Below are positions 22,168 through 28,561 of a DNA stretch of 64,000 nucleotides, piece by piece; within the stretch, counting starts at the first letter, position 1, and the number at the start of each line of letters is the position of its first letter. The position numbers and the translations under genes were made by a program. Origin of the DNA: Streptomyces liliiviolaceus (lineage in GTDB: Bacteria > Actinomycetota > Actinomycetes > Streptomycetales > Streptomycetaceae); contig NZ_JAGPYQ010000001.1 of the NCBI RefSeq assembly GCF_018070025.1, forward strand, positions 372,001 through 436,000. The letters are read 5' to 3'. The notes under the pieces were generated by a model. It saw only the letters and a list, made by a program, of their open reading frames with translations, was not told the DNA's origin and did no database searches.

Positions 22168-23475
22168 ATGAAAAAGACCGCCAAGTCCTCCTTGCTGGTC
22201 ACTTCCGCCACCCTGTTGTCGTTCTCGCTCGCGCTCACGGCGACCGCCACCGCGCCCGCCGCCGCAGCCGCGGCAGCCTTCGCGGCGGACAAGCCGAAGC
22301 CGAGCCCGTCGGCCAGCCCCTCGGCCACCCCACCGGCGGACATGTCGTCCGTGGGCGGCGCCCTGCTCGCGCAGCCCGGGACGCAGGCGAACCTCGGCAC
22401 CGGCGCGCCGGTCCTCCCGAAGGATCTGAGCGCCCGCTCCTGGATCGTCGCGGACGCCGAGTCCGGCGATGTCCTCGCCTCGCACAACGCGCACTGGCGG
22501 CTGCCCCCGGCGAGCACCCTGAAGATGCTGTTCGCCGACACCGTGCTGCCGAAGTTCCCCAAGAAGCAGAAGCACAAGGTCGTCCCGGCGGACCTGGCGG
22601 GCATCGGCGCGGGCTCCAGCATGGTGGGCGTCAAGGAGGACGAGACGTACACGGTCCACGATCTGTGGCTCGGTGTCTTCCTTCGCTCCGGCAACGACGC
22701 CGTGCACGTCCTGTCCGCGATGAACGGCGGCGTCGACCAGACCGTCAAGGACATGAACGCGCGCGCCGAGGAGCTCCAGGCGCTCGACACGAACGTGGTC
22801 AGCCCGGACGGCTACGACGAGAAGCGCCAGGTGTCGTCGGCGTACGACCTGACCCTGTTCGCCCGCTCCGGCCTGCAGAACGAGGACTTCCGGGAGTACT
22901 GCTCGACGGTCCGCGCGAAGTTCCCCGGGGAGACGAAGAAGAACAAGAAGGGCAAGACCACCCGCGGGTCCTTCGAGATCCAGAACACCAACCGGCTGCT
23001 GACCGGCGACTACGGCCTCGACGCCTACCAGGGCATTGCGGGTGTGAAGAACGGCAACACCACGAACGCGGGCGCGACCTTCACCGGGGTCGCCGAGCGC
23101 GACGGCCGCGTGCTGCTCGTCACGGTCATGAACCCGGAGAAGCAGGAGCACGACGAGGTCTACAAGGAGACCGCCAAGCTCCTCGACTGGGGCTTCAAGG
23201 CCTCGGGCAAGGTCACCCCGGTCGGCGAGCTGGTGCCGCCGAAGAGCGCGGACACGGGCGCGCAGCCCGGCGCGAACGCCTCCGGCGAGGCGGGCGGTTC
23301 GGGTGACGGCGCGGGCAGGTCGAAGACGGTGGCCGCCGCGTCGAAGACGGACGGTTCGGGCGGTGTCGGCATCGCCCTGGCGATCACCGGCGGCGTCCTC
23401 GCCCTGCTCGCCGCCGGTGTCTTCCTGATCAACCGCCGCTGGCCGCTGCCGGAGCTGATGCGCCGCCGCCGTTGA
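22168..23475 (+). CDS. D-alanyl-D-alanine carboxypeptidase (S11, PBP5/DacA type)
   Basis: A 435-residue penicillin-binding enzyme that trims the terminal D-Ala of peptidoglycan stem peptides outside the membrane. It has a signal peptide (KKTAKSSLLVTSATLLSFSL, then an Ala-rich region) and a Ser/Pro linker. The three active-site motifs are SxxK in PPASTLKML, SxN in RSGNDAV and the K-T/N-G motif in GVKNGNTTNAG. A Gly/Ser linker leads to a C-terminal membrane anchor (about 405-427) with a basic tail. Start ATG 22168; GTG 22159 is also in frame. The 3' end overlaps the convergent YihY gene by 47 bases. Confidence 0.93.
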   Translation: MKKTAKSSLLVTSATLLSFSLALTATATAPAAAAAAAFAADKPKPSPSASPSATPPADMSSVGGALLAQPGTQANLGTGAPVLPKDLSARSWIVADAESGDVLASHNAHWRLPPASTLKMLFADTVLPKFPKKQKHKVVPADLAGIGAGSSMVGVKEDETYTVHDLWLGVFLRSGNDAVHVLSAMNGGVDQTVKDMNARAEELQALDTNVVSPDGYDEKRQVSSAYDLTLFARSGLQNEDFREYCSTVRAKFPGETKKNKKGKTTRGSFEIQNTNRLLTGDYGLDAYQGIAGVKNGNTTNAGATFTGVAERDGRVLLVTVMNPEKQEHDEVYKETAKLLDWGFKASGKVTPVGELVPPKSADTGAQPGANASGEAGGSGDGAGRSKTVAAASKTDGSGGVGIALAITGGVLALLAAGVFLINRRWPLPELMRRRR

Positions 23476-24361
23476 GGTCCGCGGAGTCGTCCTCTCCGGC
23501 CGGCTCCGCCGTCTCCTTGTGCCCCGTCGCCGTCCAGGACGCGCAGAAGAGCAGCAGCTTGGACGTGAAGTTGATCCACAGCAGCAGCGCGACGGGGACC
23601 CCGAACGCCCCGTACATGCTCTTCGCCGCGACTCCCTGGATATAGCCGCTGAGCAGCAGTTTCAGCAGCTCGAACCCGGCGGCGCCGATCAGTGCGGCGA
23701 CGACGAGACGGCGCCGCTCGGGCTGGACGCCGGGGAGCAGCGTCAGGACGTACAGGAGCAGCAGGAAGGCGGCGAGGACGGCCACGGCGAACGCGGCCAC
23801 CCTCAGCAGCACCCCGCCCCAGCCGCCCTCGTCGACGCCGAGCTGCCGGGTGGTCCAGCCCACAGCGGTCGACGCGAGGGTCGACGCGGCGATCGTGACG
23901 AGGGCGGCGCCGCCGAGGCCGACGAGCACGCCGCCGTCCACGAGCTTGCGCAGGACCGGGTTCTCCTCCTCGTCCGGCAGCTCCCAGACCGCACGCAGGC
24001 ACTCGCGCATCGAGCCGACCCAGCCGATGCCGGTGAAGAGCAGCAGGGCGCCCGCGATCAGTCCGACGGTGCCCGCGTTGTCGACGAGGGCGCCGATGTC
24101 GAGCTGTTCGGCGATGCCGGGGATCTGCTCGGCGATCTTGTCCTCAAGCGTCTTCACCCCCTTCTCGTCGAGGGTCGCGGCGGCGATCGCGGCGGCCACG
24201 GTGATCAGCGGGAAGAGCGCGATGAAGCTGATGAAGGTCATCGCGGCGGCGAGCCGCGTCCACTTCACCCGGTCCAGCCGTTCGTACGAGCGCCAGGCGT
24301 GCGTGAGCATCAGTCGTGCGACCAACGGGCCCACGACGGGGAGCTTTTTCAGCCAGTCCAT
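23429..24361 (-). CDS. YihY/BrkB-family membrane protein
   Basis: A 310-residue membrane protein with about six spans and the family landmarks: the N-terminal RLAAAMTFISFIALFPLITV, a central GALLLFTGIGWVGSMRECLRAVWEL and the late YGAFGVPVALLLWINFTSKLLLF. It was formerly called ribonuclease BN but is not an RNase; members may be transporters or envelope proteins. The ATG at 24361 is 13 bases inside the 3' end of the GtrA gene, making it the last gene of the PAP2-UbiA-GtrA-YihY operon. It overlaps the DD-carboxypeptidase gene tail to tail by 47 bases. Confidence 0.92.
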   Translation of the reverse strand: MDWLKKLPVVGPLVARLMLTHAWRSYERLDRVKWTRLAAAMTFISFIALFPLITVAAAIAAATLDEKGVKTLEDKIAEQIPGIAEQLDIGALVDNAGTVGLIAGALLLFTGIGWVGSMRECLRAVWELPDEEENPVLRKLVDGGVLVGLGGAALVTIAASTLASTAVGWTTRQLGVDEGGWGGVLLRVAAFAVAVLAAFLLLLYVLTLLPGVQPERRRLVVAALIGAAGFELLKLLLSGYIQGVAAKSMYGAFGVPVALLLWINFTSKLLLFCASWTATGHKETAEPAGEDDSADLNGGGASAPAAASGG

Positions 24362-24774
24362 GATCCGACTCTGCCCTCGCCTCGGAAAACCAATGTCCTC
24401 GTACCCCAGAAGCGCAGGACCGTGGCGAGCACTATGCCGATCCCCGCGCCCGACACGGTGTCCGCGCGCGGGGAGGTGAGCCCCAGGCCGTAGTGGCTGA
24501 CGAGGATGCACAGCAGCTGTACCAGGGCTCCAGCGACGTTCACCCCGAAGAAGATCCCGTACTGGAGCAGGCTCGTGTTCGTGTGCCGGTACGTACCCAG
24601 CGCGTTGCCCGCGTACGCGACCGAGCAGCCCGCCACGAACGACAGGGCCTTGGCGGTCAGCGGGTCGAGCCCGGCCGGGCCGCGCAGCCAGAGGAAGAGG
24701 GCCAGGTCGGCGGCGTACGCGAGGAGGCCCACGGCGGCGAAGCCGAGCAGTTCCCGGCGGTGCGGCCGGGTCAC
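24349..24774 (-). CDS. GtrA-family membrane protein
   Basis: A 141-residue protein with four membrane spans and the GtrA signature: ELLGFAAVGLLAYAADLALF at the start, LSFVAGCSVAYAGNALGTYR in the middle and VLRFWGTRTLVFRG near the end. GtrA proteins help move or position lipid-linked sugars; the mycobacterial homologue Rv3789 lies in the decaprenyl-phosphoryl-arabinose locus. Start is GTG 24774, overlapping the upstream UbiA-gene stop as GTGA. Its place between the phosphoribosyltransferase and YihY genes supports a role with the lipid-linked pentose made by this cluster. Confidence 0.9.
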   Translation of the reverse strand: MTRPHRRELLGFAAVGLLAYAADLALFLWLRGPAGLDPLTAKALSFVAGCSVAYAGNALGTYRHTNTSLLQYGIFFGVNVAGALVQLLCILVSHYGLGLTSPRADTVSGAGIGIVLATVLRFWGTRTLVFRGEGRVGSWTG

Positions 24775-25745
24775 CAGTTGGCCACCGCCAGGCCGTACAT
24801 GGCGAGCCAGGCCACGCCGATCAGGGCGAGCGCGCGGTCGCGCAGGACGACGTCCTCCGGTTCGCCCGCGGTGCCCCGGTCGGCGAAGACCGCGTACCGC
24901 AGGACGGCGAGGATGAAGGCGACCATCGACAGCTGCCGCCAGGGCAGCACGCTGGTGTGCGGCAGTCCGCCCTCCTCCAGGGCCCACAGGCAGTAGCCGA
25001 GGACGGCGACGGAGGCGGCGAGCTGCCAGACGAAGCGCAGGTAGCCGACGGTGTACTCGGTGAGCAACGCGCGCGTGGCGCCCGCTTTCCCGGCCATCTG
25101 GACGGCTTCGGAGTAGCGCTTGGCGGACACCATGAACAGCGCGCCGAAGCCGGTGGTGATCAGGAACCAGCGCGACAGCGGGATGCCGAGCGCGAGCCCG
25201 CCGATCATGGCCCGCATCAGGAACCCGGTGGTCACCACGGCGAGATCGACGACCAGGACGTGCTTGAGGCTGACGCAGTACGCGAACTGCATCCCCAGGT
25301 AGGCGGTGAGCAGCGCCGAGGTGAGCGGGGAGCACACGAAGGCGGCCACGGTCGGGGCGACGACGGCGAGAACGATCCCTACGGAGTAGGCGACCGGGAC
25401 GGGCACCACGCCCGCGGCGACCGGCCGGCGGCGCTTGACCGGGTGGGCGCGGTCGGCGTCGGCGTCACGGGCGTCGTTGACCAGGTAGACGCTCGCCGCG
25501 CAGGCCGTGAACAGCACGAAGACCAGGGCGACCTGGACGAGCGCGTGGCGTGAGAAGAGTTCGCCGGCGGCGGCCGGGGCGGCGACGACGAGGACGTTCT
25601 TGACCCACTGTTTCGGACGGGCGGTCCTGACGAGCCCCTTCAGGAGGCCACTTTTCTTCGGGGCGGGCTGCTCTTCCCGTGCTCTCCCAGGACTCTCAGG
25701 GCTCCCAGGACTCCCAGCGCTCTTCAGAAGGACCGTCTCAGCCAT
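24771..25745 (-). CDS. ubiA: Decaprenyl-phosphate phosphoribosyltransferase-like UbiA protein
   Basis: A 324-residue UbiA-superfamily prenyltransferase with eight or nine spans. The first Asp-rich motif, VNDARDADADRAHPVKRRRP, is the variant typical of Rv3806c-type 5-phosphoribosyl-1-pyrophosphate:polyprenyl-phosphate transferases rather than quinone enzymes. The N-terminal RTARPKQWVKNVLVVAAPAA and second-motif SAKRYSEAVQMAG also fit that group. The expected product is polyprenyl-phosphoryl-5-phosphoribose. The ATG at 25745 has AGGAGG eight bases upstream. A PAP2 phosphatase gene overlaps upstream and GtrA downstream. The N-terminal 25 residues (Ser/Pro/Gly repeats) are not conserved. Confidence 0.9.
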   Translation of the reverse strand: MAETVLLKSAGSPGSPESPGRAREEQPAPKKSGLLKGLVRTARPKQWVKNVLVVAAPAAAGELFSRHALVQVALVFVLFTACAASVYLVNDARDADADRAHPVKRRRPVAAGVVPVPVAYSVGIVLAVVAPTVAAFVCSPLTSALLTAYLGMQFAYCVSLKHVLVVDLAVVTTGFLMRAMIGGLALGIPLSRWFLITTGFGALFMVSAKRYSEAVQMAGKAGATRALLTEYTVGYLRFVWQLAASVAVLGYCLWALEEGGLPHTSVLPWRQLSMVAFILAVLRYAVFADRGTAGEPEDVVLRDRALALIGVAWLAMYGLAVANW

Positions 25746-26259
25746 GGTCACGGCCTCCTGTCATCCAGCGGGCGCCGAGGCGGGCCGTCACCGCGCCGAG
25801 GGCGGCGCCGGCGGCGACGTCCGAGGGGTAGTGGACGCCGACGACCACCCGTGACACGCACATCGCGGCGGCCAGCGCGGGCACCACGCGGGCGCCGAGC
25901 GCGCCGAAGGCCACGGCGGCGGCCACCGCGGACGTGGCGTGCGAGCTGGGGAAGGAGTGCCGGCCCGCGGTGCGCACCAGCGGCTCGACATGGCCGGGAC
26001 GCGGACGGCGTACGAGCCGTTTCACGCCCATGCTGGCGAGGTGCGCGCCCGCGGTCAGGGCCGTGCCGCGCAGCCAGGCGCCGCGCCGCTCCCGGTCCGC
26101 GGCGGCTCCCGCGAGGCCCGCCGCGAGCCACAGCGCACCGTGCTCGCCGGCCAGGGACAGGGTCCGCGCGGCGGCGGCGACCGCGGGGCCGGTGCCGCGT
26201 GCGTGGAGGGCCGTGAGGATGCGGTGATCCAGGTCAGGGCGCTCGTCGTGGTGGTCCAT
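25738..26259 (-). CDS. PAP2-family phosphatase (candidate decaprenylphosphoryl-5-phosphoribose phosphatase)
   Basis: A 173-residue membrane phosphatase with all three PAP2 motifs: KRLVRRPRP, the central RHSFPSSHATSAVAA (with His as proton donor) and SRVVVGVHYPSDVAAG (with the nucleophilic His). Its position overlapping the phosphoribosyltransferase gene matches Rv3807c, proposed to remove the 5-phosphate from decaprenyl-phosphoryl-phosphoribose to give decaprenyl-phosphoryl-ribose. It is the first gene of the minus-strand operon and lies 142 bases from the divergent dprE1-like gene. The specific substrate is inferred from neighbours. Confidence 0.9.
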   Translation of the reverse strand: MDHHDERPDLDHRILTALHARGTGPAVAAAARTLSLAGEHGALWLAAGLAGAAADRERRGAWLRGTALTAGAHLASMGVKRLVRRPRPGHVEPLVRTAGRHSFPSSHATSAVAAAVAFGALGARVVPALAAAMCVSRVVVGVHYPSDVAAGAALGAVTARLGARWMTGGRDHG

Positions 26260-26401
26260 GGGAACTCACTGTTCACGTCAACAGGGCTACAGCTCCGGCA
26301 ATATTGAGCGACATCCCATTAATCACCCATTTCGGGGAGGAAAGGGATGTAGAGGGATGTTAGGTAACTAAAGCCAACTTCCGCTCGATACGGTCACCGG
26401 T
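26260..26401. promoter_or_regulatory. Divergent promoter region of the DPA-type cluster
   Basis: This 142-base gap separates the PAP2-UbiA-GtrA-YihY operon from dprE1-dprE2 and must hold both promoters. It is AT-rich for this genome and contains GGGATGT twice in direct orientation (26344-26350 and 26353-26359). No ribosome site is obvious before the dprE1 ATG. Confidence 0.45.
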
Positions 26402-27757
26402 ATGCCTACCGACACGGTTTCCGTCACGGGGTGGGGCCGCACCGCTCCCACCGCAGCCCGCCTGGTGCGCCCCCGTTCGTACGAGGAGGCCGTGGCGGCC
26501 GTCCGGGACTGTGGGGCCCGCGGAGGCATCCCCAGGGGCCTGGGACGGGCGTACGGGGACGCGGCGCAGAACGCGGGCGGGGCCGTGTTCGACATGACGG
26601 GGCTCGACAGCGTCCACGCGGTCGACGTGGACGGCGGGACCGTACTGTGCGGCGCCGGTGTCTCCCTGCACCGGCTCATGGAAGTACTGCTGCCGCTGGG
26701 CTGGTTCGTGCCGGTGACCCCCGGGACCCGCTATGTGACGGTCGGCGGCGCGATCGGCGCGGACATCCACGGCAAGAACCACCATGTGTCCGGCTCGTTC
26801 GCCCGGCACGTCCTGTCCTTCGAACTGCTGACCGCCGACGGGCAGATCCGCATGGTGGACCGGGGGACGCCCCTGTTCGACGCCACGGCGGGCGGCATGG
26901 GCCTGACCGGCGTCATCCTGACGGCCACCGTCCGGCTGCAGCCCGTCGAGACGTCGTTGATGTCCGTCGACACAGAACGCGCCACGGACCTGGACGACTT
27001 GATGGCCCGCCTCACGGCCACCGACCACCGCTACCGCTACTCGGTCGCCTGGATCGACCTGCTGGCCCGCGGCGCGTCCCTGGGCCGCTCGGTGCTGACC
27101 CGGGGCGATCATGCCCCCCTGGAGGCGCTGGACGGCCGCACGCGCGCGCGTAGAGCCCCGTTGGAGTTCCGTCCGGGGCGTCTTCCCGCCGCGCCCTCCT
27201 TCGTCCCCGAGGGTCTGCTGGGCCGTACGACGGTGGGCCTCTTCAACGAGCTCTGGTACCGCAAGGCGCCCCGCGCGCGGGTGGGCGAACTCCAGCGGAT
27301 GTCCACCTTCTTCCACCCCCTCGACGGTGTGCCGCACTGGAACCGCGTCTACGGGCGCGGCGGTTTCGTGCAGTACCAGTTCGCCGTCGGCTACGGACAG
27401 GAGGAGACCCTGCGCCGGATCGTGCGGCGCATCTCGCAGCGCCGCTGCCCCTCGTTCCTCGCCGTCCTGAAGCGGTTCGGCGAGGGCGACCCGGGCTGGC
27501 TGTCCTTCCCGATGCCCGGCTGGACCCTCGCCCTCGACATCCCCGCGAACCTGCCGGGGCTCGGCGGTTTCCTCGACGAACTCGACGAGGAGGTCGCCGC
27601 GGCCGACGGGCGGGTCTACCTCGCCAAGGACTCCCGGCTGCGGCCCGAGCTGCTCACGGCGATGTATCCGCGGCTCGGCGAGTTCCGGGCGCTGCGCGAG
27701 GAGCTGGACCCGCGGTCCGTCTTCACCTCCGACCTGTCCCGGCGCCTCGGGCTCTGA
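26402..27757 (+). CDS. dprE1: DprE1-like FAD-dependent decaprenylphosphoryl-ribose oxidase
   Basis: A 451-residue VAO-family flavoenzyme expected to oxidise C2 of polyprenyl-phosphoryl-ribose to the 2-keto intermediate. It shows the FAD domain with PRGLGRAYGDAAQNAGG (Tyr51) and GGAIGADIHGKNHHVSGSFA (His123), an FAD-fold ATAGGMGLTGVIL, and the C-terminal SFPMPGWTLALDI and VYLAKDSRLRP (Lys409, matching M. tuberculosis Lys418). The cysteine attacked by benzothiazinones (Cys387 in GWNICVDFP) aligns with Ala377 here. Length and motifs match mycobacterial DprE1 closely. It is followed by the DprE2-like reductase gene and faces the UbiA/PAP2/GtrA operon. Confidence 0.93.
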   Translation: MPTDTVSVTGWGRTAPTAARLVRPRSYEEAVAAVRDCGARGGIPRGLGRAYGDAAQNAGGAVFDMTGLDSVHAVDVDGGTVLCGAGVSLHRLMEVLLPLGWFVPVTPGTRYVTVGGAIGADIHGKNHHVSGSFARHVLSFELLTADGQIRMVDRGTPLFDATAGGMGLTGVILTATVRLQPVETSLMSVDTERATDLDDLMARLTATDHRYRYSVAWIDLLARGASLGRSVLTRGDHAPLEALDGRTRARRAPLEFRPGRLPAAPSFVPEGLLGRTTVGLFNELWYRKAPRARVGELQRMSTFFHPLDGVPHWNRVYGRGGFVQYQFAVGYGQEETLRRIVRRISQRRCPSFLAVLKRFGEGDPGWLSFPMPGWTLALDIPANLPGLGGFLDELDEEVAAADGRVYLAKDSRLRPELLTAMYPRLGEFRALREELDPRSVFTSDLSRRLGL

Positions 27758-27805
27758 CCCCGGCCGCCTGCCCTGTCGGCCCTCTCCCCATAGGAGTTCG
27801 GTTCC

Positions 27806-28561
27806 ATGAAGGACGCCTTCGGCATCCCCCAGTCCCTGCTCGTCCTCGGCGGCACGTCCGAGATCGGGCTCGCCACCGCACGCCGGCTGATCGCCCGCCG
27901 CACCCGCACGGTGTGGCTCGCGGGCCGTCCCTCACCCGGCCTGGAATCGGCCGCGTCCGGACTGCGCGAACTCGGCGCGGACGTCCGTACCGTCGACTTC
28001 GACGCGCTCGACCCCGACGCCCACGAGGCGGCCCTCGGCAAGGTCTTCGCCGAGGGCGACATCGACATGGTGCTGCTCGCGTTCGGCGTCCTGGGCGACC
28101 AGTCGCACGACGAGAACGAGCCCGGCGCCGCGGTACGGGTCGCCCAGACCAACTACACGGGCGCCGTGTCGTCGGGCCTGGTGTGCGCACGGGCGCTCCA
28201 GACGCAGGGCCACGGCTCCCTGGTGGTGCTCTCCTCGGTGGCGGGCGAGCGGGCCCGCCGCGCCAACTTCATCTACGGCTCCAGCAAGGCGGGCCTCGAC
28301 GCGTTCACCCAGGGCCTGGGGGACGCGCTGTTCGGCACGGGCGTCCACGTGATGGTCGTACGCCCCGGCTTCGTCCGCTCCAGGATGACGGAGGGCCTGG
28401 AGGAGGCCCCGCTGGCGACAACCCCCGAGGCGGTCGCCACAGCCATCGAAACGGGCCTGCGCCGCCGCTCGGAGACGGTATGGGTACCGGGGGCGCTGAG
28501 GCTGGTCATGTCGGCACTGCGACACGTCCCACGGGGGGTGTTCCGCCGCCTGCCGCTGTAG
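27806..28561 (+). CDS. dprE2: DprE2-like short-chain dehydrogenase
   Basis: A 251-residue short-chain dehydrogenase expected to reduce the 2-keto intermediate to decaprenyl-phosphoryl-arabinose, completing the epimerisation begun by DprE1. The N-terminal VLGGTSEIGLATARRL is the nucleotide-binding motif seen in Rv3791. The sequence also shares LLAFGVLGDQ, INYT-like TNYTGAVSSG, the catalytic Ser in VVLSSVAGERARRANF, YGSSKAGLDAF (Tyr and Lys) and RHVPRGVFRRLPL at the C-terminus, all close to the mycobacterial enzyme. It lies 48 bases after dprE1 with GGAG upstream of the ATG. Convergent with the 2H phosphoesterase gene across repeat cluster C. Confidence 0.93.
   Translation: MKDAFGIPQSLLVLGGTSEIGLATARRLIARRTRTVWLAGRPSPGLESAASGLRELGADVRTVDFDALDPDAHEAALGKVFAEGDIDMVLLAFGVLGDQSHDENEPGAAVRVAQTNYTGAVSSGLVCARALQTQGHGSLVVLSSVAGERARRANFIYGSSKAGLDAFTQGLGDALFGTGVHVMVVRPGFVRSRMTEGLEEAPLATTPEAVATAIETGLRRRSETVWVPGALRLVMSALRHVPRGVFRRLPL

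Follow-up and report, generated by a model that had tools for sequence, protein, structure and literature searches.

Genes at the locus

The window analysed here, a stretch of 64,000 nucleotides of Streptomyces liliiviolaceus DNA (contig NZ_JAGPYQ010000001.1, positions 372,001 to 436,000), contains six genes at 23429-28561 that, judged by sequence, are a complete gene set for a pathway of the decaprenyl-phosphoryl-arabinose (DPA) type. The genes form two units that are transcribed apart: PAP2-UbiA-GtrA-YihY on the minus strand and DprE1-DprE2 on the plus strand. A first-pass annotation had placed UbiA, PAP2, GtrA, YihY, DprE1 and DprE2 together here, and Pfam and NCBIfam scores bear out both the gene identities and their order.

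Three of the gene products exceed NCBIfam equivalog cut-offs, and these three are the committed steps of DPA synthesis. The earlier claim of a complete pathway of this type is supported. The UbiA-family decaprenyl-phosphate 5-phosphoribosyltransferase (24771-25751, minus strand) scores 434.2 bits against NF008978 (cut-off 207) and matches 8j8j with E=1.8e-81. The Rv3806c-type Asp motif reported for it is indeed present as NDxxDxxxDxxHPxKxxRP, and the same motif occurs in 67 of the 69 UbiA proteins called across 80 related loci, the best 80 of at least 565 confirmed candidate stretches from a DprE1 scan of genome contigs. DprE1, the decaprenylphosphoryl-beta-D-ribose oxidase (26402-27757, plus strand), reaches 673.9 bits against NF053785 (cut-off 500) and matches solved DprE1 with E=8.3e-120. 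DprE2, the decaprenylphosphoryl-2-keto-pentose reductase (27806-28561, plus strand), reaches 380 bits against NF053786 (cut-off 250).

The remaining three genes are assigned by Pfam domain. The PAP2-family protein (25738-26259, minus strand; PF01569, 60.7 bits, cut-off 27.2) is a probable polyprenyl-phosphoryl-5-phosphoribose phosphatase with a domain match only and no NCBIfam equivalog above cut-off. The GtrA-family protein (24349-24774, minus strand), a putative lipid-pentose translocation helper, scores 72.1 bits against PF04138 (cut-off 26.1) in a scan of the longer open reading frame 24349-25335 that contains it. The YihY/BrkB-family membrane protein (23429-24361, minus strand; PF03631, 159 bits, above the Pfam cut-off) is the 3'-most gene of its unit; its start at 24361 is that of the gene caller, and the longest open reading frame starts at 24511.

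The annotation had also described two divergent operons with overlapping genes. The divergence is confirmed, with 142 bp between the units (26260-26401) in which both promoters presumably lie. Overlaps are found between PAP2 and UbiA (14 bp), UbiA and GtrA (4 bp) and GtrA and YihY (13 bp). DprE1 and DprE2, however, are 48 bp apart, so overlaps are confined to the minus-strand genes.

The window's DprE1 retains the residues equivalent to K418 and Q336, as do 78 of the 79 relatives called. The position aligned with Cys387, which we take to be the target of covalent benzothiazinones, is an alanine in the window (Ala377) and in 78 of the 79. Covalent DprE1 inhibitors are therefore predicted not to label the streptomycete enzymes.

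Distribution in Streptomycetaceae

We call a genome DprE1-positive if it has a protein above the NF053785 cut-off; G numbers denote genomes (G000 is the genome of the window) and L numbers denote loci. Among 200 Streptomycetaceae genomes 82 are DprE1-positive. Hence the trait is patchy and family-wide, and the cluster is less of an oddity in Streptomyces than the annotation had implied. The negative class includes G136, G194 and G162 (497, 477 and 475 bits) and about 20 genomes that have only weaker full-length DprE1 relatives.

As in the window, 65 of the 80 related loci sit between dacA and trpS, so the grouping of these genes goes beyond chance. Seven lie elsewhere; the other eight run into a contig end or have no DprE1 call. 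Canonical UbiA (at least 377 bits) occurs together with DprE1 in 69 genomes and without it in two; 13 of the 82 DprE1-positive genomes have no canonical UbiA.

A distant second UbiA-DprE1(-DprE2) set, with 33-50% identity to the window proteins, is seen at L113-L117 and L120-L124. No PAP2 was called beside it at these loci. It mostly adjoins a protein of about 360-400 amino acids, and the copy in L113 matches the NAGPA phosphodiester glycosidase family with 35.9 bits (cut-off 25).

An AftB-like candidate transferase

No transferase was recognised among the 61 called genes of the window, where family-library scans covered the cluster and its near flanks only. Since no user of the lipid-linked product is evident in the window, we looked for one genome-wide. 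The annotation had named EmbA-like and AftB-like GT-C (glycosyltransferase C) enzymes as the arabinosyltransferases to look for. For the first kind there is no PF04602 (Emb) match in G000, in a search of that family alone that found its positive control in Corynebacterium glutamicum. The second kind has a match. An AftB-like GT-C protein is encoded at G000:C1:2705224-2706981 and matches solved AftB (9dlf) with E=4.2e-70, aligning residues 39-580 of 585 to residues 31-644 of 669, the RRWxxDD region included.

AftB-like proteins occur in 26 of the 200 genomes, and all 26 belong to the 82 DprE1-positive ones (Fisher p=5e-12, uncorrected for relatedness; all our Fisher tests treat genomes as independent, with no tree correction). 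Inside the window's own genus the co-occurrence is 9/9 against 32/63 (p=1e-3). In 30 named genomes, all of them chosen as cluster carriers, four have an AftB-like match (L065, L091, L095 and L100). The annotation had suggested, among other uses of the lipid, an arabinofuranosyl- or ribosyl-containing envelope polymer or glycolipid. The idea of an arabinofuranosyl acceptor gains support because the window's genome has an AftB-like protein and because such proteins are found exclusively in DprE1-positive genomes.

We read the neighbourhoods of AftB-like genes in 21 of the 26 genomes (G158, G020, G038, G075 and G138 were omitted). Thirteen of them are clusters of ABC/TagF type or lie near DPA genes. 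At L151-L154, in four DprE1-positive genomes, a membrane protein of about 600 amino acids adjoins tagF31; the L151 protein matches solved AftB with E=2.4e-69 and scores 280.7 bits against the AftB equivalog NF041481 (cut-off 1050).

In G000 small secreted proteins are encoded at a distance of a few genes from the AftB-like one (C1:2705224-2711424; L220, L194, L195), and the same is seen in G040 (L199). We take these small proteins to be rodlin- or chaplin-like. The labels rodlin and chaplin, like ABC, tagG, tagH, FHA and PK, are presumptive and were given by the look of the sequence, not by a family search.

Links to teichoic-type clusters

The lead on the user of the lipid comes from the seven related loci outside the dacA-trpS interval. 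TagF-like fusions of a GT2 glycosyltransferase and a glycerophosphotransferase adjoin the DPA set in L078 and L091, and they adjoin the DprE genes in L055, L062 and L099. The domain PF04464 was demonstrated in three such proteins encoded at L078 and L091. Two loci, L095 from S. cacaoi and L100, have the DPA set flanked by a trio of ABC-transporter-like genes on one side and TagF-like genes on the other. The same ABC-like trio and four PF04464 proteins occur in one region of the window's genome, at G000:C1:2368-2396 kb. Thus gene linkage refines the acceptor suggested by the annotation toward wall glycopolymers of teichoic acid type.

Further candidate transferases appear in these surroundings. 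The GT-C-like protein c132 is encoded directly 3' of DprE2 in L078 and L118, and in L131 the order is TagF-like gene, membrane protein gene, c132 and UbiA, followed by DprE1, DprE2, YihY and dacA. Eleven of the 13 matches listed for c132 are strong, and all 11 are in DprE1-positive genomes; the two omitted are G110 (DprE1-positive, E=1.8e-6) and G125 (negative, E=7.8e-14). Neither c132 (from L078) nor the GT-C protein of L130 has a match in G000, and profile A2, made from both, finds none there at E<=10. A2 also missed the AftB-like protein of G000, which makes these absences weak. A sequence search of solved structures with the L130 and L078 proteins gave nothing useful.

T30 is a protein of predicted GT-C fold in a TagF-type cluster of the window's genome (G000:C1:2382931-2384271), and its gene shares 4 bp with a TagF-like gene. 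Its structure model resembles GT-C enzymes. A Foldseek search returned nothing at E<=0.001; the top match was AftA (E=0.039). At L168 (G012) a T30-type gene follows DprE2 and is split across two open frames, which may reflect a broken gene or a sequencing error.

A membrane protein, M520, was considered as a DPA-specific enzyme and rejected, as its form of 45-53% identity occurs in 17 DprE1-positive and 12 DprE1-negative genomes. The form of at least 70% identity occurs in 17 genomes, all DprE1-positive, a count that leaves more distant forms aside. M520 has no match in G000. A shortened M520-type gene of 207 amino acids follows tagF31 in the DprE1-negative G009 (L171:12434-13057) and looks like a remnant. 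Taken together, a candidate transferase is present in 53 of the 82 DprE1-positive genomes.

A cluster of presumed sialic-acid or Kdn type lies 11-20 kb before the start of the window (L138, G000:C1:352056-360793). No GT-C candidate was seen in this upstream flank of the window. The cluster may correspond to SCO4873-SCO4882, the genes for teichulosonic acid named in PMC13011467.

A proposed role in wall decoration

From the gene identities, the AftB homology, the co-occurrence, the neighbourhoods and the predicted GT-C fold of T30, we propose that polyprenyl-phosphoryl-arabinose made by the cluster is the donor for a GtrA/GT-C system, and that this system decorates secondary wall glycopolymers, not arabinogalactan. 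We give this proposal a little better than an even chance. The gene families are known; what would be new is the tie between the DPA module, AftB-like GT-C proteins and teichoic-type clusters that neighbourhood and co-occurrence suggest.

The first steps of the scheme follow what is established for the mycobacterial enzymes, by analogy. UbiA would join phosphoribosyl pyrophosphate (PRPP) and polyprenyl phosphate to polyprenyl-phosphoryl-5-phosphoribose, and PAP2 would remove the 5-phosphate to leave the riboside. DprE1 would then oxidise C2 and DprE2 reduce it, which would give polyprenyl-phosphoryl-beta-D-arabinofuranose. Family, neighbourhood and co-occurrence suggest the later steps: GtrA may assist the lipid-linked sugar to the outer leaflet, and GT-C transferases may move the arabinofuranose onto secondary wall glycopolymers of teichoic acid type. 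In the window's genome the candidate transferases are the AftB-like protein and T30. All the enzyme activities, the identity of the sugar, GtrA as the flipping protein, the acceptor and a part for T30 are inferred from such data.

Several observations weigh against this proposal. The G000 protein scores 270.9 bits against NF041481, below the cut-off of 1050, which is why we call it AftB-like and not AftB; every AftB-like protein scanned is below that cut-off. The co-occurrence inside genus g7 is not significant (9/9 against 30/35, p=0.2). Eight of the 21 AftB-like neighbourhoods, including that of G000, fall outside TagF-type clusters and the vicinity of DPA genes. PF04464 is not specific, being found in 14 of 14 DprE1-negative genomes searched and missing from three of 20 DprE1-positive ones. 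The idea that T30 is exclusive to DprE1-positive genomes had to be rejected: eight of 28 genomes with at least 100 bits (30 were listed; G002 and G064 were omitted) are below the DprE1 cut-off. A candidate transferase is lacking in 29 of the 82 DprE1-positive genomes.

Published wall chemistry counts on the same side. The S. antibioticus genome DSM 40234 has a DPA cluster (L049, with GtrA not called) and no match to an AftB-like protein. We take DSM 40234 and NRRL B-1701 to be the same type strain of S. antibioticus. The wall polymer of NRRL B-1701, as far as the main text of the source describes it, consists of ribitol phosphate, GlcNAc3NAcA chains, glucose, lysine and phosphoethanolamine by nuclear magnetic resonance, and a word search of that main text finds no 'arabin', 'Araf' or 'furanos' (PMC13274773). 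Arabinofuranosides are labile to acid, and acid extraction may strip them from wall preparations; the S. antibioticus polymer was prepared with trichloroacetic acid. In the open-access literature that we searched, a body that excludes most subscription papers and all preprints, no link of DprE1, DPA or AftB to Streptomyces was found.

Alternatively, the AftB-like protein may use DPA on an acceptor outside the wall polymers, namely lipoteichoic acid, a glycolipid, a lipoglycan or a glycoprotein, perhaps at one developmental stage only. The arabinose-free S. antibioticus polymer, so far as its main text tells, would fit this, as would the AftB-like genes of G000 and G040, which lie among other genes beside the presumed rodlin- or chaplin-like ones, and the absence of PF04464 matches in DprE1-positive G012, G018 and G121. 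We nevertheless hold it to be unlikely, given the 13 of 21 AftB-like neighbourhoods that are of ABC/TagF type or near DPA genes. Furthermore, the substituents of S. hygroscopicus lipoteichoic acid are GlcN and GlcNAc, not pentose, in the part of the source available (PMC3196553).

A different sugar as the useful product has a still smaller chance. Here some species would make a lipid-linked ribose donor, and DprE1 and DprE2 may act on another lipid-linked sugar. Partial clusters suggest this. GtrA-UbiA-PAP2 occurs without DprE1 over the cut-off in G036 and G143 (L227 and L228), beside TagF-like proteins and proteins with multiple membrane spans, and lipid-linked ribose is possibly the end product there. 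Conversely, the GtrA-UbiA-PAP2 block is missing from eight genomes (L125, L126, L132 and L222-L226) that keep dacA, YihY, DprE1, DprE2 and trpS, and these genomes have no UbiA over the cut-off anywhere. Both kinds of partial cluster also weigh against the wall proposal. Against a product other than arabinose stand the joint presence of canonical UbiA and DprE1 in the window and in 69 of the 82 DprE1-positive genomes, the equivalog-level scores of DprE1 and DprE2, and the way in which AftB-like proteins track DprE1.

Least probable is a relict pathway that persists in many species after its acceptor system decayed: patchy presence (82/200), partial clusters, the shortened M520-type gene of G009 and the 29 genomes without a candidate transferase would agree with it, but the K418 and Q336 equivalents are kept in 78/79, synteny in 65/80 and at least one candidate transferase in 53/82.

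Returning to decoration of wall glycopolymers, a bolder version is that about two fifths of streptomycetes attach D-arabinofuranose (or ribofuranose) to teichoic or teichuronic wall polymers by way of the mycobacterial DPA route and interchangeable GT-C proteins (AftB-like, c132, T30 and M520). We regard this as tentative, with somewhat less than an even chance. If true, this modification would form one axis along which the surface coat varies between species, and umbrella toxins and phages could recognise it. If the proposed wall decoration is real, D-arabinofuranose would join Streptomyces wall chemistry, the set of DPA genes, DprE1 and AftB would gain a second setting, in laboratory strains that are not pathogens, and one more modification would be added to those variable wall polymers that have lately been identified as toxin receptors. 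What looked like an anomaly, a pathway targeted by tuberculosis drugs in a genus not known to have arabinan, becomes open to experiment, since there are now a donor module, named candidates for the transferase and a predicted type of acceptor.

Comparison with known systems

The closest relative is the DPA pathway of mycobacteria and corynebacteria, whose lipid-linked arabinose is best known as a precursor of the tuberculosis cell wall. The enzyme families are the same, and UbiA, DprE1 and DprE2 pass the equivalogs and match solved enzymes. We take the mycobacterial counterparts to be Rv3806c, Rv3807c, Rv3790 (DprE1), Rv3791 (DprE2) and the GtrA-type Rv3789. In contrast to that pathway, there is no Emb match here, the Cys387 position is an alanine, YihY is part of the unit, and in streptomycete relatives the DPA genes are linked to TagF-type clusters.

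AftB is the terminal beta-(1->2)-arabinofuranosyltransferase (NF041481; 9dlf). The G000 protein resembles it over most of its length, RRWxxDD region included. It differs in its equivalog score (270.9 bits against 1050), and no arabinogalactan pathway is expected in Streptomyces.

Hybrids of teichuronic and wall teichoic acid in Streptomyces are the receptor of umbrella toxins (PMC13274773). The main text of that source does not contain arabinose, DprE or decaprenyl by word search. The likeness lies in a polyol-phosphate wall polymer whose decoration varies between species. Downstream of the DPA genes of S. cacaoi (L095), moreover, lie genes for a UDP-sugar dehydrogenase and for a GT2 protein that carries a TarS-linker domain, and both types of protein are named in the part of the source available.

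Finally, the multi-component GtrA/GT-C transmembrane glycosylation systems of Gram-positive walls combine a polyprenyl-phosphate sugar, a GtrA-type protein, a GT-C enzyme and wall-polymer acceptors, in the available part of their description (PMC8035078). The window has the enzymes for a lipid-linked sugar, by family membership, and a GtrA-type gene, and the GT-C candidates lie outside it. Unlike in those systems as described there, the donor would come not from a GT-A enzyme but from PRPP by way of UbiA, PAP2, DprE1 and DprE2.

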